Shown one piece after another: positions 38,134 through 47,880 of a stretch of DNA of 57,843 nt. The notes under the pieces are model-generated. The model made no database searches, was not told where the DNA came from, and saw only the letters and a program-made list of their open reading frames with translations. The stretch is from Actinomycetota bacterium. GTDB lineage: Bacteria > Actinomycetota > Humimicrobiia > Humimicrobiales > Humimicrobiaceae. The position numbers and the translations under genes were made by a program. The stretch lies in contig JAQVDY010000003.1 of assembly GCA_028698215.1 (NCBI GenBank), positions 70,001 to 127,843 on the forward strand. The letters are read 5' to 3'. Each line of letters starts with the position of its first letter. Within the stretch, counting starts at the first letter, position 1.

Positions 38134-39021
38134 ATGAAAGAAAAGCTAAGCGGTGTATTTGTACCAACTATAACCCCCTTTGAGGATGATCAGGTGCAAT
38201 ACGGACAGTTGGAAGAGAATTTAAAAAAGATTAACAGCACCCCAATAACCGGGCATCTGGCACTAGGTTCAAATGGTGAATACAAGAGCCTGACTAGGGA
38301 TGAGCAGTTAAAAGTATTAGAAGTTTTTATAAAAAACAAGGGTGATAAAATAGTTATGGCTGGTACCGGTTGTGAGTCTACCAGGGAAACAGTGCAGCTA
38401 AGTAAGCAATGCCAGGAAATTGGTGCAGATTTTGTTAGCGTGCTTACCCCCAGTTATTTTAAAAAAGTTATTAATGATGATGTCCTTGTAAGCTACTATA
38501 CTGAAATAGCCGATAATGTAGATATCCCTGTGCTCATCTACAATGCTCCTGGTTTTACCGGCGGGGTTAATATTTCTCCCAAAGCAGTACGGAAACTGGC
38601 AGAGCATCCTAATATTGTAGGAATGAAAGACAGCTCACCAGCAGGCTTGATGGGTTATTTGAATGCCACTAGGGATTTAGAGGGATTCTATGTGCTTGCT
38701 GGTTCCATTAACTTCTTTTTAACTGGCCTGATTTTCGGAGCAGTAGGTGGAATTATTTCCTTGGCTAATGCTATACCTGAAGTTTGCTGCCGGCTATATC
38801 AGTTATATACCGATGGAAAAATGGAAGAGGCAATCAAGCTGCACATGGATTTATTCCAGATAAATGGAAAGGTATCAGGAGCAAATGCTGTAGCTGGAGT
38901 TAAAAGCGCTGCCGCCCTTTGTGGTTACCATGCTGGAGATCCCAGAAGACCGCTAATACCCTTAACTTCTGAGCAAAAAGAGCAAATGAGTCAATTTTTT
39001 AAAGAAAAAGGATTGGTTTAA
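38134..39021 (+). CDS. DHDPS/NAL-family aldolase or dehydratase A
   Basis: A 295-residue class I (Schiff-base) lyase of the dihydrodipicolinate synthase superfamily. Catalytic Tyr136 (LIYNAPG) and Lys165 (GMKDSS) are present, with GSNGEY as the substrate-carboxylate loop. The arginine that lysine-pathway DapA uses to hold aspartate semialdehyde is missing after the Tyr segment, so a role in cleaving or dehydrating a 2-keto-3-deoxy or hydroxy acid is more likely; pyruvate would be a product. Start ATG 38134 with AAGGAG; an upstream in-frame GTG overlaps aspS. One base separates it from the next dehydrogenase. Confidence 0.85.
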   Translation: MKEKLSGVFVPTITPFEDDQVQYGQLEENLKKINSTPITGHLALGSNGEYKSLTRDEQLKVLEVFIKNKGDKIVMAGTGCESTRETVQLSKQCQEIGADFVSVLTPSYFKKVINDDVLVSYYTEIADNVDIPVLIYNAPGFTGGVNISPKAVRKLAEHPNIVGMKDSSPAGLMGYLNATRDLEGFYVLAGSINFFLTGLIFGAVGGIISLANAIPEVCCRLYQLYTDGKMEEAIKLHMDLFQINGKVSGANAVAGVKSAAALCGYHAGDPRRPLIPLTSEQKEQMSQFFKEKGLV

Positions 39022-39022
39022 T

Positions 39023-39988
39023 ATGAAGGTTTTATTAGGCCAGTCTATTCATGAACAAGCTGTCAAGCTTCTCAAAGAAAATAATATTGAGGTTGTAATA
39101 TCTCCTTCTCCCGAAGATGAAGTGGTAAGGCAACATATCGTTGATGCTGATGCTATTATTGTCAGAACAGCTACCAAGCTAAGCAGGGAGACAATAGAAT
39201 CTGCCCCTAATTTAAAAGTAATCGGCAGGACAGGCGCTGGGGTAGACAATGTTGATGTTGAGGCCGCCTCAGAACACAATATACCAGTATGTAACACTCC
39301 GGAAGCAAATACTTCTGCCGTAGCAGAGCATGCAGTCTGTTTCATGTTAGCCCTAGCCAAAGATTTAAGCGCAATGGATAATGCAGTAAGGGAGGGTAAC
39401 TGGAAGATTAGGTTTAATTACACTCCTGTTGATATTTCGGGTAAAACATTGGGCCTGCTGGGATTTGGCAAAATCGGCAGGACTACTGCTCAGATGTGCT
39501 ACCGGTCTTTTGGTATGCAAATATTGGCCTATGACCCCTATCTGCCAGCTGATCTTAAAACCGGTTTTCCTTATACTTTAGCGGATAATATGGAAGAAAT
39601 TTTTGAGGATTCTGATTTTATATCTTTGCATATACCCTACACTAAAGAAAATCACTATATAGTAGGAAAAAAGTTGTTGGAAAAGATGAAAAACAGCGCT
39701 TACCTGATTAATACTTCCAGGGGAGGACTAATTGATGAAAAAGCTTTAGCCAAGGCTTTAACTGAACATAAAATTACAGGGGCTGCATTGGATGTTTTTG
39801 AAGACGAGCCTCCTAAGCCTGATAATCCCTTGCTTGAATGTGAAAACATAATTCTAAGCCCCCATTCTGCTGCTTTAACCAAAGAGAGCGCTACCCGTAT
39901 GGCAGTACATGCAGCCATGGGAGTAATTGATGTATTACACAACCGAAAACCGAAATGGGTATTTAATATCAAAGAAATTACCTTATAG
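39023..39988 (+). CDS. D-2-hydroxyacid dehydrogenase A (SerA-like catalytic part)
   Basis: A 321-residue NAD-dependent dehydrogenase. The nucleotide site is LGFGKIGR near residue 150, and the catalytic triad is Arg in NTSRGG, Glu in DVFEDEPP and His in LSPHSA. It has only the catalytic and NAD domains, without the ACT regulatory domain of long SerA enzymes. Substrate could be phosphoglycerate, glyoxylate or hydroxypyruvate, or a sugar-derived keto acid. It sits between an aldolase and a sugar kinase, which favours a catabolic role such as recycling NADH by reducing a keto acid. Confidence 0.85.
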   Translation: MKVLLGQSIHEQAVKLLKENNIEVVISPSPEDEVVRQHIVDADAIIVRTATKLSRETIESAPNLKVIGRTGAGVDNVDVEAASEHNIPVCNTPEANTSAVAEHAVCFMLALAKDLSAMDNAVREGNWKIRFNYTPVDISGKTLGLLGFGKIGRTTAQMCYRSFGMQILAYDPYLPADLKTGFPYTLADNMEEIFEDSDFISLHIPYTKENHYIVGKKLLEKMKNSAYLINTSRGGLIDEKALAKALTEHKITGAALDVFEDEPPKPDNPLLECENIILSPHSAALTKESATRMAVHAAMGVIDVLHNRKPKWVFNIKEITL

Positions 39989-39990
39989 GA

Positions 39991-41322
39991 ATGAAAAAGC
40001 CAGATTGCTACTTGGCTATTGATGCTGGTACCTCCAGCGTCAAGGTAGGGATAGTAGACCAAGAATATAACCTGGTTAGGCAGGCCAGTGAAAGCTATTG
40101 CTTTAAAGCTGAAAAAAAAGATGAAGTTTCGCTTGATTTTAAGCTTTTAATGGCCAAACTGCTAAAAGCTCTATCCCCGTTAAGGGAAGATTTATCTGTT
40201 ATTAAAGGGGTAGCTTTTTCAGTTCTTTGTCCAGGACTAGTGCCTTTAGATAAGGAGGGTGAACCCTTAACAGATGCCATAATACACTTGGACAGGCGGA
40301 GCGTGCGGCAGGCTCAGCAGGCTTTGAAGTTAATAGGAGAAGAAGAATTTTTAAAGTATTCTGGCAATCTGCCTTTTCCCGGAGGGATATCCCTGACCTC
40401 TATGTTATGGATTAAGCAGAATTGGCCCGATGTATATAAAGATACTTATATGTGGGGTCACACCAATACTTTTTTGGCCAGGCAGTTTACCGGTAAGTTT
40501 GGAATTGATCCCAGCAATGCATCCTTTACCGGTCTTTATAATACGGTAGGATATTCTGATTGGAATATGGATTTAGCAAGTACTTTAGGAATTGATAAGG
40601 ATAAGCTGCCCCCGGTTCTTTATTCACACCAGGTAGTAGGAAATATTACCAGACAAATAAATAACCTAACCGGCATTCCCCAGGGAGTGCCGGTTACTAT
40701 TGGTGCTGCGGATACTGCCTGTGCCGCAGTGGGTGCAGGAGTAAATGAAGATGGGCGGATTCTCAATTCCACCGGTACAGTAGAGCTGATGGTATTGTGC
40801 ATGGATAAACCGGCAGTAGATAAAAGACTGCTGCTTAGAACTCACCCTATCCCTCAAAAATGGCTTAGCATGAATATAATTGGAGCGGGTGGAGCATCAG
40901 TAGAATGGTTTAGAAAAAATTTTTGCAGGGAAATGGATGAGGATTATTATTACCGTAAATACCTTCCTCGGGTATTAAATGATTATAAGATTAGATGCCA
41001 GTTCAGGCCCTACCTGGCTGGAGACCGTTTAAGTTTTAGCCAGAAGGCAGGTTCCTTTAGCAACTTGTCCTTGGGTACCGAACGGGAAGATATGCTAAGG
41101 GCTCTGGTAAATGGTATCATCAAGCCTATGGAAAAAGCGCTGCACCAGTTTGAACAAATAACCAATACTAATAAAATTATCAGGTATACTGGAAAAGGAA
41201 GCAGTTTCCTAACCCAAATTAAAAAAGAGAAATTTTACCCTTATATTTTGGAGCCCACCATTACCAATAATACCCTTATAGGGGCCGGTATGCTCATAAA
41301 AATGAATAATGGAATTAATTAG
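39991..41322 (+). CDS. FGGY-family carbohydrate kinase
   Basis: A 443-residue sugar kinase, somewhat shorter than the usual 480-500. The N-terminal phosphate loop is LAIDAGTSSVKVGIVD; the second half has NSTGTVELM and GAGGASVEWF, then TGKGSSFLTQI where the family usually has GGG(A/S)xS. It phosphorylates a ketose, polyol or sugar acid; xylulose- or fuculose-type substrates are candidates given the fucose-isomerase-like enzyme nearby. The gene follows dehydrogenase A by 2 bp. A promoter for gntR begins right after its stop, so the upstream trio is a separate transcription unit. Confidence 0.85.
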   Translation: MKKPDCYLAIDAGTSSVKVGIVDQEYNLVRQASESYCFKAEKKDEVSLDFKLLMAKLLKALSPLREDLSVIKGVAFSVLCPGLVPLDKEGEPLTDAIIHLDRRSVRQAQQALKLIGEEEFLKYSGNLPFPGGISLTSMLWIKQNWPDVYKDTYMWGHTNTFLARQFTGKFGIDPSNASFTGLYNTVGYSDWNMDLASTLGIDKDKLPPVLYSHQVVGNITRQINNLTGIPQGVPVTIGAADTACAAVGAGVNEDGRILNSTGTVELMVLCMDKPAVDKRLLLRTHPIPQKWLSMNIIGAGGASVEWFRKNFCREMDEDYYYRKYLPRVLNDYKIRCQFRPYLAGDRLSFSQKAGSFSNLSLGTEREDMLRALVNGIIKPMEKALHQFEQITNTNKIIRYTGKGSSFLTQIKKEKFYPYILEPTITNNTLIGAGMLIKMNNGIN

Positions 41323-41334
41323 GCTAAAAAGGTT

Positions 41335-41400
41335 TTGACAAAAGCTTTCAATATAGATTACAATGAACTGGTATGACCAGCTAGGATTACTGGTATGCGT
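41335..41400 (+). promoter_or_regulatory. gntR promoter with GntR/FadR-type operator
   Basis: TTGACA at 41335-41340, 18 bp, TACAAT at 41359-41364: a strong promoter. Just downstream, over the expected start point, CTGGTATGACCAG (41368-41380) is a perfect palindrome with arms CTGGT/ACCAG, matching the FadR-class TGGT-N3-ACCA form. A second copy of the left half, CTGGTATG, lies at 41390-41397, 22 bp further, two helical turns away. Repressor binding here would block transcription. Confidence 0.7.
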
Positions 41401-41432
41401 GGAGTAACTTGTTTGCCTATTAAAATAATACA

Positions 41433-42152
41433 ATGAACAAATCTGATTTAAAATCAGTTAATAATAAAAGCACCGTTCAGATGGTAATAGACCAGTTAAT
41501 CAGTCAAATAAAAAAAGGCCAGTTAAAACCCAATGATAAAATGCATTCCCAAAGAGAACTAGCTAAAAGGTTTAAGGTGGGAAGAAGTTGCGTAAGGGAA
41601 GCCCTCCAGGCTCTAAGCCTATCCAATATAATTGAAATTAAGCCCTGCAAAGGGGCTTTTATTTCAGAACTATCCATAGAGTCCATTATGAACCCGGCTA
41701 AAGTCCATCTTACTGTAACCAAGGAAGAGCTTTTTGATTTAGTCAATGTAAGACTTATTTTAGAAACTGCAGCCATTAGAGATGCAGTAGTTAATGCCTT
41801 ACCGGGAGATTTAGAAAAACTTCAAAGACATATAAACAATACCAAGAAATGCCTTCAGGAAAACAAAATTGACCTATATTATTTTGAAGATTACGAATTT
41901 CACAAAACTATTTTTAATTGTACCCAAAACAAGGTATTAATAAATATATTTGATTTTATCTTTGAGATCCTGGTGGAAGGCATAAAAACCACTGCCCAGG
42001 TGCCTGGTTCTAAAGATAGGGGATTAAAATGGCATAAGGAAATATATAAGCATATAAAGAATAAGGATGTGGATGGTGCAGAGAAAGCCCTGACCAGCCA
42101 CCTTATGCAAATTAGGGAGGATATTAATAGGGCAGATTTTTTAATGAGTTAA
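41433..42152 (+). CDS. GntR-family regulator, FadR/FCD subfamily
   Basis: A 239-residue transcription factor. The N-terminal winged helix-turn-helix is seen in KMHSQRELAKRFKVGRSCVREALQ and KPCKGAFI (about residues 30-80). The C-terminal helical FCD domain (VRLILETAAIRDAV, YYFEDYEFHKTIFN, WHKEIYKHIKNKD) has the Asp/His positions that usually bind a metal and a carboxylate effector, so the inducer is probably a sugar acid or other organic acid. It probably represses its own promoter and the isomerase-ALDH genes behind it. Confidence 0.9.
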   Translation: MNKSDLKSVNNKSTVQMVIDQLISQIKKGQLKPNDKMHSQRELAKRFKVGRSCVREALQALSLSNIIEIKPCKGAFISELSIESIMNPAKVHLTVTKEELFDLVNVRLILETAAIRDAVVNALPGDLEKLQRHINNTKKCLQENKIDLYYFEDYEFHKTIFNCTQNKVLINIFDFIFEILVEGIKTTAQVPGSKDRGLKWHKEIYKHIKNKDVDGAEKALTSHLMQIREDINRADFLMS

Positions 42153-42200
42153 ACTATTAGAATATTTATTAATAAAATAATCAAAAAACGGGAGGATAAT

Positions 42201-43544
42201 ATGGCAATTAAATTTAGAAAGGTTAAGCTGGGGTTTGTTAATTTAGCCCTGGATTTTCTGGATGAAGAAGATCTAAAAACTGCTTCCGGCTATGCTAAAG
42301 ATGCCAGGGAATTGCTGGAAAGCATGGGGGCTGAAGTGGTTGAATTCCCTAAACCCATGGATTCCAGGCCATTGGCTAATGAAGCTTGGAAACTATTTAC
42401 AACCGAAATTGTAGACGCCGTAGTTATATTCAATGGTACTTTCTCTACAGGCGACATCACTGTGGAGCTGGTAAGAAACATGGATTGCCCCTTCTTGATC
42501 TGGGGCATAGAAGAATTTGCCGCCAGCAAGCATAATTTTACCGGCTCTATGGTAGGAGCAATGCCTGCAGGCAGCATTTTTAAAAATTTCGGCAGGACAT
42601 TTTCTTTTGTCTATGGCAATGCCAAAGGCGGTAGGCCAAATCATGGTGTACAAAAATTTATTAAAGCGGTAACTGCTATTGCTTATCTTAGGGAAGCAGC
42701 CATAGGGGTAATTGGAATGAGGCCTGATGGCTTTGAAATTTCTGATTTTGATGAGCTGGCTATCAAACAAAAATTCGGCACCACTATCACCAAGGTTTCT
42801 ATGTATGAGTTCTCTAATATAATTAAGGGAATTAGCGAAGAAGAAATTGATAAGGATATGGAAACCCAAAAACAGATATTCGAGATTGCAGAAAAAGATT
42901 TGGAGGAATCAAGAGGGCTATCCAGAGTATATCTTGCAGTTAAAAAGGTAGTGGAAGAAAAGAATCTAAAATCTTATGCACCTGATTGCTGGCCTGAATT
43001 AAGGGACATAGACAAAACTCCTATTTGTCCTGCTAACGGCCGTTGCAATGCTGAAGGTATTATGGCTTCCTGTGAAAACGATGTTGATGGATCTTTAACT
43101 TTAATGCTGCAATATGTGCTTGCTGGAAGTACTCCCTGGTTTGCAGACTTTGTAAATATTATAGATGACCTGGATGCATTACTTTTCTGGCACTGTGGAA
43201 ATTCACCTTATAATCTGTCTTACAAGAAAACCAAAATAGAAAGGGTATTTGGGGGATTAGCAGAGACAGATTCTTTAAAGGGCGGAGTGGCTACAGTGTG
43301 CAGGCTCAATTCAATAAGAGGGGAATATGCTATTCATGCAGGTATTGGAGAAGTAATTGAAACCGAGCCCTTGCTGAAGGGCAGCAACCTTTGCATAAAG
43401 ATGAAAGGTGGAAATTTCGAATTTGTAGAGTCACTTCTCAGGAATGGTATTCCTCATCATAATGGATTGGTTTACGGTGATATTTTAGAGGAACTGGAAG
43501 AATTTGCAAAGCTGATGCAAATACCTTTTGTTGTACAAAAATAA
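42201..43544 (+). CDS. L-fucose/L-arabinose-isomerase-like sugar isomerase
   Basis: A 447-residue protein of the COG2407 type, shorter than E. coli FucI (about 590). Likely metal ligands are Glu and Asp in ASCENDVDGSLT and His in LLFWHCGNSP; the C-terminal substrate domain follows (GIPHHNGLVYGD). It should interconvert an aldose and a ketose with Mn2+, but the sugar is unknown. Start ATG with GGGAGG in the leader. It follows gntR by 48 bp and precedes the aldehyde dehydrogenase by 19 bp, so all three form one unit. Confidence 0.8.
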   Translation: MAIKFRKVKLGFVNLALDFLDEEDLKTASGYAKDARELLESMGAEVVEFPKPMDSRPLANEAWKLFTTEIVDAVVIFNGTFSTGDITVELVRNMDCPFLIWGIEEFAASKHNFTGSMVGAMPAGSIFKNFGRTFSFVYGNAKGGRPNHGVQKFIKAVTAIAYLREAAIGVIGMRPDGFEISDFDELAIKQKFGTTITKVSMYEFSNIIKGISEEEIDKDMETQKQIFEIAEKDLEESRGLSRVYLAVKKVVEEKNLKSYAPDCWPELRDIDKTPICPANGRCNAEGIMASCENDVDGSLTLMLQYVLAGSTPWFADFVNIIDDLDALLFWHCGNSPYNLSYKKTKIERVFGGLAETDSLKGGVATVCRLNSIRGEYAIHAGIGEVIETEPLLKGSNLCIKMKGGNFEFVESLLRNGIPHHNGLVYGDILEELEEFAKLMQIPFVVQK

Positions 43545-43563
43545 ATATTAGCAAGGAGGAAAG

Positions 43564-45036
43564 ATGAAAGAATTTAAGCTGTTTATCAACAACCAGTGGG
43601 TTGATGCCGAAAATGGCAAAACCTTTATTTCCTATTGCCCCGCTACGGGCGAGGAACTGGCAAAACTTGCAGCTGCTTCCGAAAATGATGTAAACAAGGC
43701 AGTAGCTGCAGCTAAAGCTGCTGCCCCTAAATGGGCTGCTATGAGCGGTGATCAGAGAGCTGACCTGATGATGAAAGCTTTGGAAATAATGAAGAGAAGG
43801 CATCAGGAACTGGCAGAATGGGAAGCTAAGGATGTAGGGAAACCCATTCATGAAACAGTCAATACTGATTTACCTTATGCTTTTATGGCTATGGAGTATT
43901 TCTCCAATAAGGCCAGGCAAATCAGGGGAGATGAAGTACCTATTGCTGGGGGAGAAACATTATGTTATGAAACCTGGGAGCCTTATGGCGTAGTAGGCTC
44001 AATTATTCCCTGGAACTTCCCCATACATATTGGTACCAGAACCATATGCCCTGCGTTATCTGCAGGAAATACCGTAGTTTTAAAAGCTTCCAGTATGGCT
44101 CCCATCACCTGCCAGATGCTGGGTGAAATTTTCTTGGAAGCCGGTTATCCTGAAGGTGTGTTAAATATTGTATCTGGGTCAGGGAGTGTTACCGGGGAAG
44201 CCATGCTGGTACATCCTGATATAGACATGATTTCTTTTACTGGCTCTACTGCTGTGGGCAGAAGATGCATGCAGGCTGCTGCTGAATCAAACTTAAAGAA
44301 AGTAATTCTAGAGCTGGGCGGCAAAGGCCCCTTCATTGCTGAGCCTGACTGCAAAGTGAGCGATGCAGTTAATTCTCTCATATTAGGATTCTGTTTCATG
44401 CAAGGAGAAGTTTGCTGTGCTTCCACCAGGCTATATGCCCATGAAGACATTTATGATGAGTTTGTAGACCTGCTGGTAAAAAGATGTAATTCCATGAAGA
44501 TTGGCGATATCATGGATCCTGAAACCAGGATGGGAGCCTTGATAGATGAGAATCAGTATAAAACTATTGACGGTTACGTACAAAGAGCTGTAAAAGACGG
44601 CGCTAAACTATTATGTGGAGGCCAAAGGGTAACTGGTGGAGTATTTGATAAAGGATTCTTCTATCCTCCTACAGTGCTGGAAGTCAACGATAACAGTATG
44701 GAATGCGTACAGGAAGAAATATTTGGGCCAGTGGTAACCGTAATGAAATATAAAACCTTTGAAGAAGCTCTGGAACTTGCCAATGATACTGTATACGGCC
44801 TGGGTGCTACTATTTGGAGCGAGAATGTTAGAAAGCTTATCAAAGCTACCAGAACATTGGATGCCGGTATAGTATGGATGAACACAAATGTTATGTCTAA
44901 GATCGAAGCTTCTTATGGGGGCAATAAATTAAGCGGAATCGGTAGAGAAGGCGGAGAAGTCGGCCTTATGGAATACCTGAAGTGCAAGAACAATGTTCTT
45001 TTCTTGGGCGAAGAAGGCAATTACTACGGATTCTAA
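43564..45036 (+). CDS. NAD-dependent aldehyde dehydrogenase, non-acylating type
   Basis: A 490-residue classical ALDH that oxidises an aldehyde to its acid. Motifs are IIPWNFPIHI (cofactor), SFTGSTAVGRR, ELGGKGPFIAE with general base Glu250, GEVCCASTR with the nucleophile Cys284, and EEIFGPVV. It resembles lactaldehyde/glycolaldehyde/betaine-type dehydrogenases, not the CoA-acylating EutE/PduP type usual in microcompartments, and I see no added encapsulation helix at either end. Ribosome site AAGGAGG. A strong hairpin follows the stop. Confidence 0.92.
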   Translation: MKEFKLFINNQWVDAENGKTFISYCPATGEELAKLAAASENDVNKAVAAAKAAAPKWAAMSGDQRADLMMKALEIMKRRHQELAEWEAKDVGKPIHETVNTDLPYAFMAMEYFSNKARQIRGDEVPIAGGETLCYETWEPYGVVGSIIPWNFPIHIGTRTICPALSAGNTVVLKASSMAPITCQMLGEIFLEAGYPEGVLNIVSGSGSVTGEAMLVHPDIDMISFTGSTAVGRRCMQAAAESNLKKVILELGGKGPFIAEPDCKVSDAVNSLILGFCFMQGEVCCASTRLYAHEDIYDEFVDLLVKRCNSMKIGDIMDPETRMGALIDENQYKTIDGYVQRAVKDGAKLLCGGQRVTGGVFDKGFFYPPTVLEVNDNSMECVQEEIFGPVVTVMKYKTFEEALELANDTVYGLGATIWSENVRKLIKATRTLDAGIVWMNTNVMSKIEASYGGNKLSGIGREGGEVGLMEYLKCKNNVLFLGEEGNYYGF

Positions 45037-45048
45037 AGTAAAAATTAG

Positions 45049-45078
45049 CAGGGAGGGGTTGCAGGCAGCCCCTCCCTG
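45049..45078 (+). terminator. Hairpin terminator after the aldehyde dehydrogenase gene
   Basis: CAGGGAGGGG (45049-45058) and CCCCTCCCTG (45069-45078) form a 10-bp GC-rich stem with a 10-nt loop, 13 bp after the stop codon. The downstream TTATTGTTT is only moderately T-rich. It separates the gntR-isomerase-ALDH unit from the aldolase B-BMC unit, whose promoter should lie in 45079-45175, where TATAAT boxes occur at 45109-45114 and 45131-45136 without good -35 partners. Confidence 0.75.
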
Positions 45079-45175
45079 GGCTATTATTGTTTGCAAATAG
45101 ATTAGAATTATAATAGTATTAGCTAATTTTTATAATTTAACAGTACAACATATGCTTTAGTAAGGGCTGGTATAA

Positions 45176-46144
45176 ATGAATGATAACCGTTTTAAAGTAG
45201 TTTTTACTGATTATGATTTCGAAGATGTAGCTATTGAAAAAGAAGTCTTGTCACAAATGGATTGTGATATAGTAGAGCTACAAAGCAAAGATGAGGACAA
45301 GCTAACCGCAGAATGCGCAGACGCTGATGGTTTAATAGTGCAGTATGCTCCCATATCCGATAAGGTAATTGCGGCTATGCAGAAATGCAAAGTAATATCC
45401 AGGTATGGTATAGGGGTAGATACCATCAACTTATCGGCAGCTACCCAAAAGGGAATAAAAGTATGTAATGTCCCTGATTACTGCTTGGATGAAGTAGCTG
45501 ACCATAGCTTAGCTTTGATTATGTCTTTGGGAAGAAAAATAGTAGATTTAACCAAAGCCGTAAAATCAGGGGTATGGGATGCAGTAGGGACATCTAAACC
45601 TGTATTTAATTTTAAAAGGCAGATACTGGGTATCATAGGGTTCGGAAAGATTCCTCAAAACCTTTACCCCAAGGTAAAGGCCCTTTTTGGCAAAGTACTA
45701 ATATATGATCCTTATGTAAGCCAGGAAATAAAAGACCAGTTTGGCTTGGAAATGGCTAGTTTTTATGAAATAATTCATAATTCAGATTTCCTTTCTATTT
45801 ACTGTCCTTTAAATGATTCCACCTTTCACATGTTTGACCAGAGAGAATTCCAAATGATGAAGCCTACCTCTTTTATTGTGAATACCTCCAGGGGCGGCAT
45901 AATAAATACAGAAGCTTTGTATCTGGCTTTAATTCACGGCCATATAGCTGGAGCAGGATTGGATGTATTGGAACAGGAACCGCCTGGAATAGATAATGAG
46001 CTGGTTAAGCTGGATAATGTAATAGTAACTCCTCATGCCGCTTTCTATTCTGAATCTTCCATTGAGGATTTAAAATACAAAACCGCCTTGAATATTGTAA
46101 AAGTTTTAAAAGATGATAACCCACAAAATGTGGTTAATCGGTAG
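45176..46144 (+). CDS. D-2-hydroxyacid dehydrogenase B (CtBP/PGDH-like)
   Basis: A 322-residue dehydrogenase of the same family as the enzyme at 39023-39988 but only distantly similar to it. Catalytic Arg (VNTSRGG), Glu (DVLEQEPP) and His (VTPHAA) are present. The glycine-rich loop reads GFGKIPQ: the third glycine of GxGxxG is Pro160. Function and cofactor preference may differ from the family norm. First gene of the unit that ends with the BMC shell protein. Confidence 0.82.
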   Translation: MNDNRFKVVFTDYDFEDVAIEKEVLSQMDCDIVELQSKDEDKLTAECADADGLIVQYAPISDKVIAAMQKCKVISRYGIGVDTINLSAATQKGIKVCNVPDYCLDEVADHSLALIMSLGRKIVDLTKAVKSGVWDAVGTSKPVFNFKRQILGIIGFGKIPQNLYPKVKALFGKVLIYDPYVSQEIKDQFGLEMASFYEIIHNSDFLSIYCPLNDSTFHMFDQREFQMMKPTSFIVNTSRGGIINTEALYLALIHGHIAGAGLDVLEQEPPGIDNELVKLDNVIVTPHAAFYSESSIEDLKYKTALNIVKVLKDDNPQNVVNR

Positions 46145-46162
46145 TTGAAAGGAGTATAGTTT

Positions 46163-47347
46163 ATGGATATACCTGAAGGCGTAATCGTAGCAATGCTTAC
46201 CCCCTTTGACGAGCAGGGGAAAATAAATGAAGTAGAGGTAAGAAGGTTCGTTAATTTTTTGATTGATAAAGGGGTTGACGGTTTATTTCCGGTAGCTTCT
46301 TGTGGTGAGTATACCCATATGGATATGGGTGAAAGAAAGTTTTTAATTGATGTCGTGGTAGATGAAGCCAGGGGCAGGGTAGATGTAATACCGGGTTCCG
46401 GGGCTACTTGTCACCATAAATCAGTAGAGATAGCAAATTATGCTAAGGAAAAAGGCTGCTCAGGAGTAGTTTTGCATGGGCCTTACTTTTTCCAGAATAC
46501 CAAGGAAGTAGTAGAAGGTCACTTAAGAAAAGTAGCAGAATCGGTAGATATTCCTATCTTTTTATACAATATTCCATTCTTTGCCAATGAAGTTACTCCC
46601 CAAATGGCAGAAAACCTGTGCAATATGCCTAATGTAGTTGGAATAAAGGATTCTTCTGGCAATATGGTTAATGTTATGAACTTGATCGAAATGACCAGAA
46701 AGGTAAACCCTGATTTCAGGGTATTGGTAGGTGCAGAGGAAATACTTCTACCAGCATTAATGATGGGCGGCAGGGGCTGCATGACTGCTACTGCAGGTAT
46801 TATGCCTGAATTTATGGTGGGCATATATAAGAACTTCCTAAACCAAAACACCCAGAATGCTGCCAATTTGCAGTTTGCAATCCTTCCCTTGATCAGGGAA
46901 ATGAAATCTGTAAACTTTCCTCAGGGATTTAAAGAGGCTTTGGATGTTAGGGGCATAAATACAGGACCTCCTATGATGAACTATCCCCCCCAGGAAATGG
47001 CTAAGATTGCTGATTTAAAAACCAGGTTAGAGCTGGAAATGGAAAACCTTATGGATAAATATTTCACAGGAGTTTCCCTTAAATACAGGGAAGGCAGTGA
47101 TATAAGGGCCAAGCTAAGTTATCCTGCCCCCATGGCCAGCGAAACCACAGCAGGTATTAAAAAATATAGTGATTGTGTAGTATGCGGTATGTGTGATGGC
47201 GATGTTGAATGCAAGGTAGTACCTTGCGACAGTGTTTCCACCGATAGTGCCCAGCAGGCTACACCTATAGGCAATAAGGAAAATATAGATGAAGCTCAGC
47301 TTCAGGAAATAATTGCACAGACTATTAAGAAGGTTCTGGGCCAATAA
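46163..47347 (+). CDS. DHDPS/NAL-family aldolase B with Cys-rich segment and encapsulation-peptide-like tail
   Basis: A 394-residue protein, about 95 longer than the family norm. Residues 1-300 are a complete class I aldolase barrel with Tyr135 (LYNIP) and Lys162 (GIKDSS); the carboxylate loop is ASCGEY, and the DapA-type arginine is absent. After the barrel comes a segment with five cysteines (C338, C341, C344, C350, C355; CVVCGMC...ECKVVPC) that could bind a metal or Fe-S centre. After a flexible linker, residues 376-394 (DEAQLQEIIAQTIKKVLGQ) form an amphipathic helix of the kind that targets enzymes into microcompartments. The BMC-H gene follows after 18 bp. The likely reaction is retro-aldol release of pyruvate plus an aldehyde; the substrate is unknown. 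Confidence 0.85.
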   Translation: MDIPEGVIVAMLTPFDEQGKINEVEVRRFVNFLIDKGVDGLFPVASCGEYTHMDMGERKFLIDVVVDEARGRVDVIPGSGATCHHKSVEIANYAKEKGCSGVVLHGPYFFQNTKEVVEGHLRKVAESVDIPIFLYNIPFFANEVTPQMAENLCNMPNVVGIKDSSGNMVNVMNLIEMTRKVNPDFRVLVGAEEILLPALMMGGRGCMTATAGIMPEFMVGIYKNFLNQNTQNAANLQFAILPLIREMKSVNFPQGFKEALDVRGINTGPPMMNYPPQEMAKIADLKTRLELEMENLMDKYFTGVSLKYREGSDIRAKLSYPAPMASETTAGIKKYSDCVVCGMCDGDVECKVVPCDSVSTDSAQQATPIGNKENIDEAQLQEIIAQTIKKVLGQ

Positions 47348-47365
47348 TAAAGAAAGGATTAAGAT

Positions 47366-47629
47366 ATGAATAAAGCATTAGGTTTAATTGAGACCAGAGG
47401 GCTGGTAGGGTCCATAGAAGCTGCTGATGCCATGGTGAAGGCAGCCAATGTAACTCTAATTTCTAAAGCTTATGTAGGCGGAGGATTAGTTACAGTCATA
47501 GTTGAAGGTGATGTAGGGGCAGTAAAAGCTGCTGTAGATGCAGGTTCTGCTGCCGCCAAGAGAGTGGGGGAGGTAGTATCTGTACATGTTATACCTAGGC
47601 CCCATGAGGAAACATCAAAAATAATTTAA
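47366..47629 (+). CDS. Bacterial microcompartment shell protein, BMC-H (hexamer)
   Basis: An 87-residue single BMC domain close to EutM/PduA/CcmK. Diagnostic stretches are [49 protein letters not shown] and [22 protein letters not shown]. The pore loop (between the YVGGG strand and VTVIVEG) has small residues, which suits passage of small polar metabolites. Only this one shell gene is in the window; a BMC-P pentamer and BMC-T trimers would be needed for a closed shell and must lie elsewhere. Start ATG after AAAGGATTAAG. Confidence 0.95.
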
Positions 47630-47684: not shown

Positions 47685-47880
47685 AAAATGGATACGCTGT
47701 TTGGTACGTAATTAGAGTTAATTTTTGTGCCAACAAATTAACTTTGGAAGCCCAAACTTCATCTGCGGCATAAATGCCCGTGTTATTGCGGGACTTATAA
47801 AACAGCTAGGAGGGCATCCACCTGCTGAGGCAGGGCATAAAAAACTTCCAATAATTACGGCCGAATGGGGTATCCATTTT
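47685..47880 (+). ncRNA. Structured non-coding RNA candidate, class not recognised
   Basis: A 196-nt stretch with nested, perfectly matched helices. P1: 47685-47695 with 47870-47880 (AAAATGGATAC/GTATCCATTTT). Next: 47700-47704 with 47861-47865 (one G-U), then 47707-47714 with 47852-47859 (CGTAATTA/TAATTACG). A junction follows, with hairpin 47716-47724/47735-47743 (AGTTAATTT/AAATTAACT) and helix 47744-47750/47845-47851 (TTGGAAG/CTTCCAA). The inner part has small hairpins (47767-47778, 47777-47792, 47821-47834) and two GGGCAT copies (47812, 47833) that can pair alternately with ATGCCC at 47774. It fills most of the 273-bp gap between the BMC-H gene and alaS. It lacks T-box, tmRNA and RNase P signatures. 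It could be a free RNA or an alaS leader element. Confidence 0.7.

Follow-up and report, generated by a model that had tools for sequence, protein, structure and literature searches.

The stretch of DNA described here, hereafter the window, comprises 57,843 nucleotides at the end of contig C3 (positions 70001–127843) of the genome of an uncultured Actinomycetota bacterium (G000), whose assembly of 1.78 Mb in 63 contigs is 98% complete. Between window positions 38134 and 47629 lie nine open reading frames (ORFs), all on the plus strand, and this report concerns one of them, the DHDPS-family aldolase DHDPS2, together with the bacterial microcompartment (BMC) shell gene that follows it. According to Pfam, the operon starts with another DHDPS-family aldolase of 295 amino acids (DHDPS1, 38134..39021; DHDPS), followed by a D-isomer-specific 2-hydroxyacid dehydrogenase (HADH1, 39023..39988), an FGGY-family sugar kinase of 443 amino acids (39991..41322; FGGY_N only, with FGGY_C unmatched), a GntR/FCD regulator (41433..42152), an L-fucose/L-arabinose-isomerase-like enzyme (42201..43544; Fucose_iso_C and AraA_central), an aldehyde dehydrogenase of the non-acylating type (ALDH, 43564..45036; Aldedh), a second D-isomer-specific 2-hydroxyacid dehydrogenase (HADH2, 45176..46144), DHDPS2 itself (394 amino acids, 46163..47347; DHDPS) and the hexameric shell protein BMC-H (47366..47629). 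ORFs and Pfam matches uphold the nine-gene, same-strand set that was named in the initial annotation of this DNA. The BMC-H protein scores 100 bits on the Pfam BMC model, so far over the cut-off of 24.5 bits that the assignment is not a matter of chance. Its gene starts 18 bases after DHDPS2, which in turn is separated from HADH2 by 18 bases, and at the other end of the operon the gaps between DHDPS1, HADH1 and the kinase gene measure 1–2 bases (1 base between DHDPS1 and HADH1). The operon is flanked by aspartyl- and alanyl-tRNA synthetase genes, both named by eye.

The initial annotation had proposed this set as a candidate for a self-contained new type of metabolosome without the hallmark enzymes of known ones, and had called for a search of the genome for further shell genes. 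This search turned up such genes, so that one of the results named there as refuting did not come about. PF00936 has eight matches in G000, corresponding to four single-domain (BMC-H) and two double-domain (BMC-T) proteins, and PF03319 has nine (BMC-P). The main BMC locus lies on the minus strand of contig C6 and encodes four BMC-P, two BMC-H (BMC-H1 and BMC-H2) and two BMC-T proteins along with a PF00596 class II aldolase, a PF06130 PTAC (PduL), an aldehyde dehydrogenase (AldDH) and a PduS/RnfC-like protein. The AldDH is of the acylating type, exceeding the cut-off of the NF011927 subfamily (522 versus 403 bits). A LarA-like racemase (433 bits, under the cut-off of 460), GlcD- and GlcF-like subunits and a DeoR regulator are also encoded there. 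For the class II aldolase all NCBIfam matches fall under their cut-offs, the best being 3-oxo-tetronate 4-phosphate decarboxylase (130 of 250) and the second L-fuculose-phosphate aldolase (112 of 264). Contig C7 is a third shell site with five BMC-P genes in a row, one BMC-H gene and an acetokinase-family gene nearby. This array (L019, 5504–7193), in which the BMC-P genes precede the BMC-H gene, was seen again as a five-gene array in relatives (L060–L066, L069). The absence of hallmark enzymes is therefore true inside 38134–47629 but false genome-wide, and a stand-alone new BMC type is ruled out by the acylating-type AldDH, PduL, class II aldolase, BMC-P and BMC-T on C6. A single BMC-H in the window and a main locus with both BMC-H and BMC-P on C6 is the arrangement of a BMC satellite in the available text of Sutter 2021 (PMC8217296). 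Given that the shell genes and hallmark enzymes sit on C6, we conclude that the window cluster is a satellite locus of the genome's main metabolosome, which resembles fucose/rhamnose-type BMCs. The window BMC-H groups with copies of the main-locus BMC-H2 in a clade of 23, supported at 97/96 on few columns.

DHDPS2 consists of a normal DHDPS barrel, a linker of ~75 residues that holds a conserved Cys motif, and, at the C-terminus, a helix resembling an encapsulation peptide (17 residues, 375–391; window 47285..47335). In its AlphaFold model, which is of low confidence (mean pLDDT 59.2, from a 5-sequence alignment), residues 301–376 have no regular structure and residues 377–393 form a helix. 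Short peptides of a similar kind are found across the family at the N-termini of the main-locus AldDH and PduL and at the C-terminus of the class II aldolase; N-terminal encapsulation peptides are described for one AldDH group in the available parts of Sutter 2021 (PMC8217296). We trained a profile of 17 columns on these peptides of the three main-locus enzymes only, with DHDPS2 left out, and used 824 other ORFs from 78 loci as background (99th percentile, 9.0 bits). The tail of the window DHDPS2 scored 20.5 bits, a value matched or beaten by 2 of the 824 background ORFs and by none of 2000 shuffles. The two higher-scoring ORFs are a PF01116 aldolase in genome G018 (locus L086), which adjoins a BMC-H gene, and an AldDH in G030 (L075), one gene away from two BMC-H genes. 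With partial training data the rank was kept in five of six cases, 1–2 of the 824 ORFs and 0–4 of the 2000 shuffles reaching the score of the tail. The other eight proteins of the operon reached 4.1 bits at most, and neither DHDPS1 nor ALDH gave an encapsulation-peptide signal. Beyond the window, 12 orthologue tails were scored (leaving aside L048 and L057, both cut by contig ends, and the fragment L059): seven lie at 15.3–22.8 bits, one at 10.3, one at 7.8 and three, from genus g13, at −0.6 to −1.9. The hydrophobic moment was uninformative as a generic tag test, with 259 of 657 background ORFs reaching the value of the G002 tail. As expected of BMC cargo, the DHDPS2 tail is like the terminal peptides of the co-occurring cargo, except when a PduL-only profile is used (see below). 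The Cys motif (CxxCGxCxGDxxC in the window, 47174–47227) is conserved within an otherwise variable linker in the g1 and g5 orthologues; g10 has related Cys patterns, and g13 has lost most of the motif. It is possibly a metal or Fe-S site or a disulfide.

Of 35 family genomes, 14 yielded a DHDPS2 orthologue (at least 48% identity), the G018 copy being a fragment with a stop. All belong to the 23 genomes with both PF00936 and PF03319 matches, and none of the 12 genomes without shell genes has one; the chance value of this co-occurrence, 0.0004, ignores shared ancestry, and several of the genomes are incomplete. In a sample of the phylum, 12 of 396 genomes matched DHDPS2 at an E-value of 1e-50 or better, all of them in the window's family, and a Desulfobacteraceae contig carries a more distant homologue (46–47%) without the tail. 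The BMC-H gene directly follows DHDPS2 in five (G000, G001, G002, G003 and G007) of the 13 genomes with a readable downstream flank; the flank of G010 is cut and lies outside this count. In G003, the aspartyl-tRNA synthetase gene is directly followed by DHDPS2 and BMC-H, the other operon genes being absent there.

As to the kind of aldolase, the lysine enzyme DapA was considered and rejected for both proteins, since DHDPS1 (165 bits) and DHDPS2 (177 bits) remain under the cut-off of the dapA model TIGR00674 (206.15 bits). Another G000 gene, beside a dapB-like ORF (by eye), scores 360 bits on that model. The closest solved relative of DHDPS1 is human 4-hydroxy-2-oxoglutarate aldolase (HOGA1). 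DHDPS2 scores 177 bits on the DapA model, 147 and 130 on NAL models, 109 and 107 on models of glucarate-type dehydratases and 101 on that of archaeal KDG-aldolase. When its structural model was submitted to Foldseek, YagE, named a probable 2-keto-3-deoxy-galactonate aldolase, came first, with DHDPS structures at a nearly equal E-value; because the model is of low confidence, we take this result as supportive only. Lys162, Tyr135 and Gly48-Glu49 are invariant in all five sequences compared and are presumably the Schiff-base lysine, the catalytic tyrosine and the GxxGE-type loop of the DHDPS/NAL superfamily, features common to its lyases, synthases and dehydratases.

Clues to the substrate come from the gene contexts in relatives. 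In G015 and G028, DHDPS2 is preceded by genes for an SDR, an MBL-fold lactonase-like protein and an MR/MLE dehydratase, in this order, and in G015 a RhaS-like binding protein and an ABC transporter are encoded upstream of this module. In NCBIfam, the SDR is best matched by L-rhamnose 1-dehydrogenase (203 of 400 bits), the MR/MLE enzyme by L-rhamnonate dehydratase (237 of 393 bits). The module adjoins rhaA in G001 and lies two genes from it in G003 (both rhaA genes being over the PRK01076 and Pfam cut-offs and under that of TIGR01748), while in G007 it stands beside a RhaS binding protein that is over its cut-off. Orthologues of the MR/MLE enzyme (at least 71%) are present in 6 of the 35 family genomes, every one of which is DHDPS2-positive. 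Further contexts involve the set isomerase-like enzyme–ALDH–HADH2–DHDPS2, upstream of which G012 carries a sugar ABC transporter, an AOR-family gene, a URO-D-family gene and an L-fucose isomerase (over cut-off), and G007, G030 and G018 another SDR; the two of these SDRs that were scored pass the broad subfamily model NF005559. Cleavage of a 6-deoxy 2-keto-3-deoxy acid yields pyruvate and lactaldehyde. The latter is the aldehyde expected in fucose/rhamnose BMCs, as stated in the available text of three papers (PMC6620236, PMC4207490, PMC5322786).

Altogether, we consider it fairly probable that DHDPS2 is a shell-docked 2-keto-3-deoxy-sugar-acid aldolase of a satellite cargo locus that feeds the main aldolase-type metabolosome. 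DHDPS2 would belong to the class I (Schiff-base) aldolases acting on such acids and, co-expressed with the extra BMC-H, would dock to the main shell by its C-terminal peptide. Working in the direction of cleavage, it would split a sugar-derived 2-keto-3-deoxy acid, most likely a derivative of L-rhamnose or L-fucose; pyruvate would be released together with an aldehyde that is most likely lactaldehyde. Within the shell, the acylating-type AldDH and PduL of the main locus would convert this aldehyde to an acyl phosphate, from which an acetokinase-type kinase would form the acid and ATP; the operon's own ALDH, which has no tag, could oxidise aldehyde in the cytosol. What the sequences show directly is the order of the genes, the likeness of the tags, the presence of shell genes, the co-occurrence and the contexts of the operons, and from these we deduce encapsulation, substrate, product and direction of the reaction. 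The assignment of DHDPS2 as a tagged keto-acid aldolase is held fairly firmly. A 6-deoxy acid as its substrate is held less firmly, because no sugar-acid dehydratase was found in G000 and the relatives with the rhamnose-type operon have some of the worst tails; judged from the gene context in G015 and G028 and from co-occurrence, this substrate may be 2-keto-3-deoxy-L-rhamnonate. A shell-linked split of a keto acid to pyruvate and an aldehyde had already been suggested in the initial annotation, and the tag of DHDPS2 and the rhamnose-type gene sets of two relatives speak for it, whereas DHDPS1 is untagged and HOGA1-like.

Several observations weigh against this interpretation. The supply of the keto acid is the main difficulty, as the sole MR/MLE_C match in G000 is under the cut-off and neither an orthologue of the module's MR/MLE enzyme nor a UxaA-type dehydratase was found in this genome; the module lactonase was likewise not found, in a search without a positive control. 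Two IlvD/EDD copies are present in G000, and the second, whose neighbourhood was read, looks biosynthetic, judging by gene sizes alone. Since rhaA in G000 starts 150 bases from the end of its contig (C49), it is possible that an assembly gap hides a dehydratase module there; G002 (97% complete) lacks both rhaA and the MR/MLE orthologue. In g13, the SDR and MR/MLE matches are both under their curated cut-offs. Among solved structures, an unnamed protein (262 bits) comes nearest to the MR/MLE enzyme, followed by a putative galactonate dehydratase (256 bits) and then by a rhamnonate dehydratase (226), and G023, the third g13 genome, has DHDPS2 without the SDR–lactonase–MR/MLE module. By sequence, DHDPS2 itself is closest to DapA (132 bits, with YagE at 129), and among the models that of archaeal KDG-aldolase scores lowest (101 bits). 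With regard to the tail, a PduL-only profile fails to recover it (−2.9 bits, a score that 57 of the 824 ORFs and 90 of the 2000 shuffles equal or exceed). Tails are weak in the g13, G022 and G032 relatives, those of g13 (−0.6 to −1.9 bits) show an ordinary hydrophobic moment, and both genomes with the rhamnose-type operon, G015 and G028, belong to this weak-tail genus. Finally, no BMC-H gene follows DHDPS2 in G012, G015, G018, G022, G023, G028, G030 (two copies) and G032, so that the linkage in relatives on which the initial annotation had made its case depend holds in 5 of the 13 readable flanks but fails in 8.

The main alternative, which we regard as unlikely, is that the aldolase is encapsulated but acts on a different substrate, with HADH1 and HADH2 making the keto acids (2,4-dihydroxy or 3-deoxy-aldonic acids being oxidised to 4-hydroxy-2-oxo acids) for the pairs DHDPS1–HADH1 and HADH2–DHDPS2. 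A dehydratase would then be unnecessary in G000, in line with the failure to find one for sugar acids there, and the HOGA1-like nature of DHDPS1 would fit as well. In the window, gaps of 1 and 18 bases separate the partners of these pairs, which are also adjacent in G001 and G002, but G030 and G018 keep all four genes with HADH2 preceding DHDPS1 and HADH1 preceding DHDPS2; the pairing is therefore not fixed. Moreover, DHDPS1 and HADH1 are missing from the stretches read in G007 and G012, no HADH gene stands beside DHDPS2 in G003, and in G015 and G028 DHDPS2 follows a dehydratase gene without any HADH. Enzymes of the HADH family also often work in the reducing direction.

Alternatively, the BMC-H gene might be an accidental neighbour, or a mere tuner of shell permeability, and the operon an ordinary cytosolic sugar-acid pathway. 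The eight flanks without BMC-H would agree with this, as would the varied neighbours of satellite BMC-H genes in relatives (in L081, one lies within a few ORFs of the DNA polymerase I gene), and permeability tuning is proposed for satellites in the available text of Sutter 2021 (PMC8217296). Given the resemblance of the DHDPS2 tail to the main-locus tags, the finding of its orthologues in shell-bearing genomes of the family only and the G003 arrangement, where the DHDPS2–BMC-H pair occurs with none of the other genes of the operon, we think that there is little chance of this explanation being right. Least probable in our judgement, and indeed very improbable, is that DHDPS2 is a dehydratase of the L-2-keto-3-deoxypentonate or 5-keto-4-deoxyglucarate type that supplies ALDH with a semialdehyde. 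L-2-keto-3-deoxypentonate dehydratase does belong to the DHDPS/NAL superfamily, according to the available text of PMC6336799, ALDH matches alpha-ketoglutaric semialdehyde dehydrogenase (under the cut-off), and the glucarate-type dehydratase models score slightly above archaeal KDG-aldolase. However, the same models remain below those of DapA and NAL, YagE is the top Foldseek match (even though DHDPS structures are nearly equal and the model is of low confidence), and the product of a dehydratase would probably be unsuited to the AldDH/PduL core.

As for the remaining genes of the operon, the FGGY kinase occurs, among the DHDPS2 neighbourhoods read, in the window and in G002 only. The isomerase-like protein gave just a weak match to L-arabinose isomerase in a sequence search, and its AlphaFold model (mean pLDDT 38) is too poor for use. 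It distantly resembles sulfoquinovose isomerase (195 bits, cut-off 700), a score that leaves a sulfoquinovose pathway based on an SftI-like isomerase unsupported. The best match of ALDH is betaine-aldehyde dehydrogenase, again under the cut-off. The operon is possibly split into two transcription units: a promoter-like site lies upstream of the GntR gene, although shuffled sequence has such sites just as often (27.1 expected, against 28 found). The stretch between ALDH and HADH2 contains a hairpin of 13 pairs (45049–45078), which could be a terminator or a processing site within the operon. Downstream, between the BMC-H and alanyl-tRNA synthetase genes, lies a 6S (SsrS) RNA gene (47691–47875; 86.5 bits, Rfam RF00013).

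Other satellites were observed in relatives. L075 (G030 contig C9, 4724–12770) is SPU-like, with DeoC (over cut-off), an FGGY kinase, two BMC-H, an AldDH with a C-terminal tag of 30.7 bits and an acetokinase, and L086 (G018 contig C49, 766–5127) combines a Zn-alcohol dehydrogenase, a 2-hydroxyacid dehydrogenase, BMC-H, a tagged PF01116 class II aldolase (23.6 bits) and a PIG-L family deacetylase. In L082 (G032 contig C79, 4209–10595), a BMC-H1-like gene lies between two gene groups, FGGY kinase with ALDH, and MTTB-family methyltransferase with B12-binding genes. A lone BMC-H near glutamate-synthase-like, GATase and pyridine-nucleotide oxidoreductase genes, with no tag seen, makes up L077 (G012 contig C77, 2989–9889), which L073, L079 and L084 resemble by gene sizes only. 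We tentatively suggest, as an idea that could well prove wrong, that this metabolosome lineage combines one conserved core shell with satellite modules that can be exchanged, in each of which a tagged enzyme for aldehyde handling is paired with a BMC-H of its own: the DHDPS type in the window, in G018 the PF01116 aldolase, and in G030 the AldDH with a DeoC gene. For the window genus, this would mean that a 2-keto-3-deoxy sugar acid undergoes non-phosphorylative cleavage of the Dahms type within a BMC.

For comparison with known systems we relied on the available portions of the papers cited. The C6 locus, in which a PF00596 aldolase and AldDH accompany PF06130, PF00936 and PF03319 genes, has the composition that marks PVM and PVM-like loci, and it is like these and the GRM5 fucose-rhamnose BMCs (Axen 2014, PMC4207490; Sutter 2021, PMC8217296) in its PF00596 aldolase, AldDH, DeoR, PduS-like protein and expected lactaldehyde; the window differs by adding a PF00701 Schiff-base aldolase whose expected substrate is a non-phosphorylated keto acid. 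A glycyl radical enzyme, as in GRM5, was not seen among the G000 genes read, with no genome search made for one. The EUT-module satellites of HO, SPU3 and SPU6 BMCs (Sutter 2021) are similar to the window in that a remote shell gene and enzymes extend the main organelle to another substrate, but they carry EutABC and BMC-T, whereas the window module is a keto-acid aldolase set. ACI BMCs (Sutter 2021) share with G000 an aldolase with a C-terminal encapsulation peptide and a 2-hydroxyacid dehydrogenase, which in G000 are at separate sites; the ACI type, which also has a BMC-P triplet, uses an aldolase of PF00596 and is confined to Acidobacteria, while the tagged satellite aldolase of the window is of PF00701. 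The taxon speaks against ACI, since, of the five loci named, four are titled Actinomycetota and one Desulfobacteraceae. In SPU BMCs (Sutter 2021), a DeoC-type aldolase likewise hands an aldehyde to the metabolosome, but DeoC (PF01791) and RpiB act there on a sugar phosphate and neither is in the window operon. DeoC was absent from the operon by Pfam and from the C6 ORFs by eye, no genome search for PF01791 having been made, and an RpiB-like ORF lies on C7 (by eye). The non-phosphorylative L-fucose pathway of Campylobacter jejuni (PMC12566272) has a DHDPS-annotated gene and a putative aldehyde dehydrogenase in its sugar locus, but no shell protein is named in the text available.

In the available parts of the BMC surveys, the signature aldolases are of class II (PF00596) or of the DeoC type (PF01791) and act on sugar phosphates. 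Among the matches listed in the full-text literature, with subscription papers and the supplements of BMC catalogues outside the search, no paper places a DHDPS-type or keto-deoxy-acid aldolase in a BMC. Within the papers searched, Dahms-type cleavage may have no precedent in any BMC. The small operon, with its one shell protein and its tagged aldolase, suggests that organelles with protein walls can draw on a type of sugar breakdown that searchable papers have not reported for them. If true, a shell-targeted pyruvate-releasing aldolase would bring oxidative, phosphate-free sugar-acid pathways into BMC chemistry, and would show how a single shell can serve again when the same toxic aldehyde arises from a second source. 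The DHDPS2 tail offers a short and directly testable candidate encapsulation tag on a well-understood enzyme fold. Set against these systems, the locus is of a known kind, a satellite that extends an aldolase metabolosome, and its new part is the cargo chemistry.

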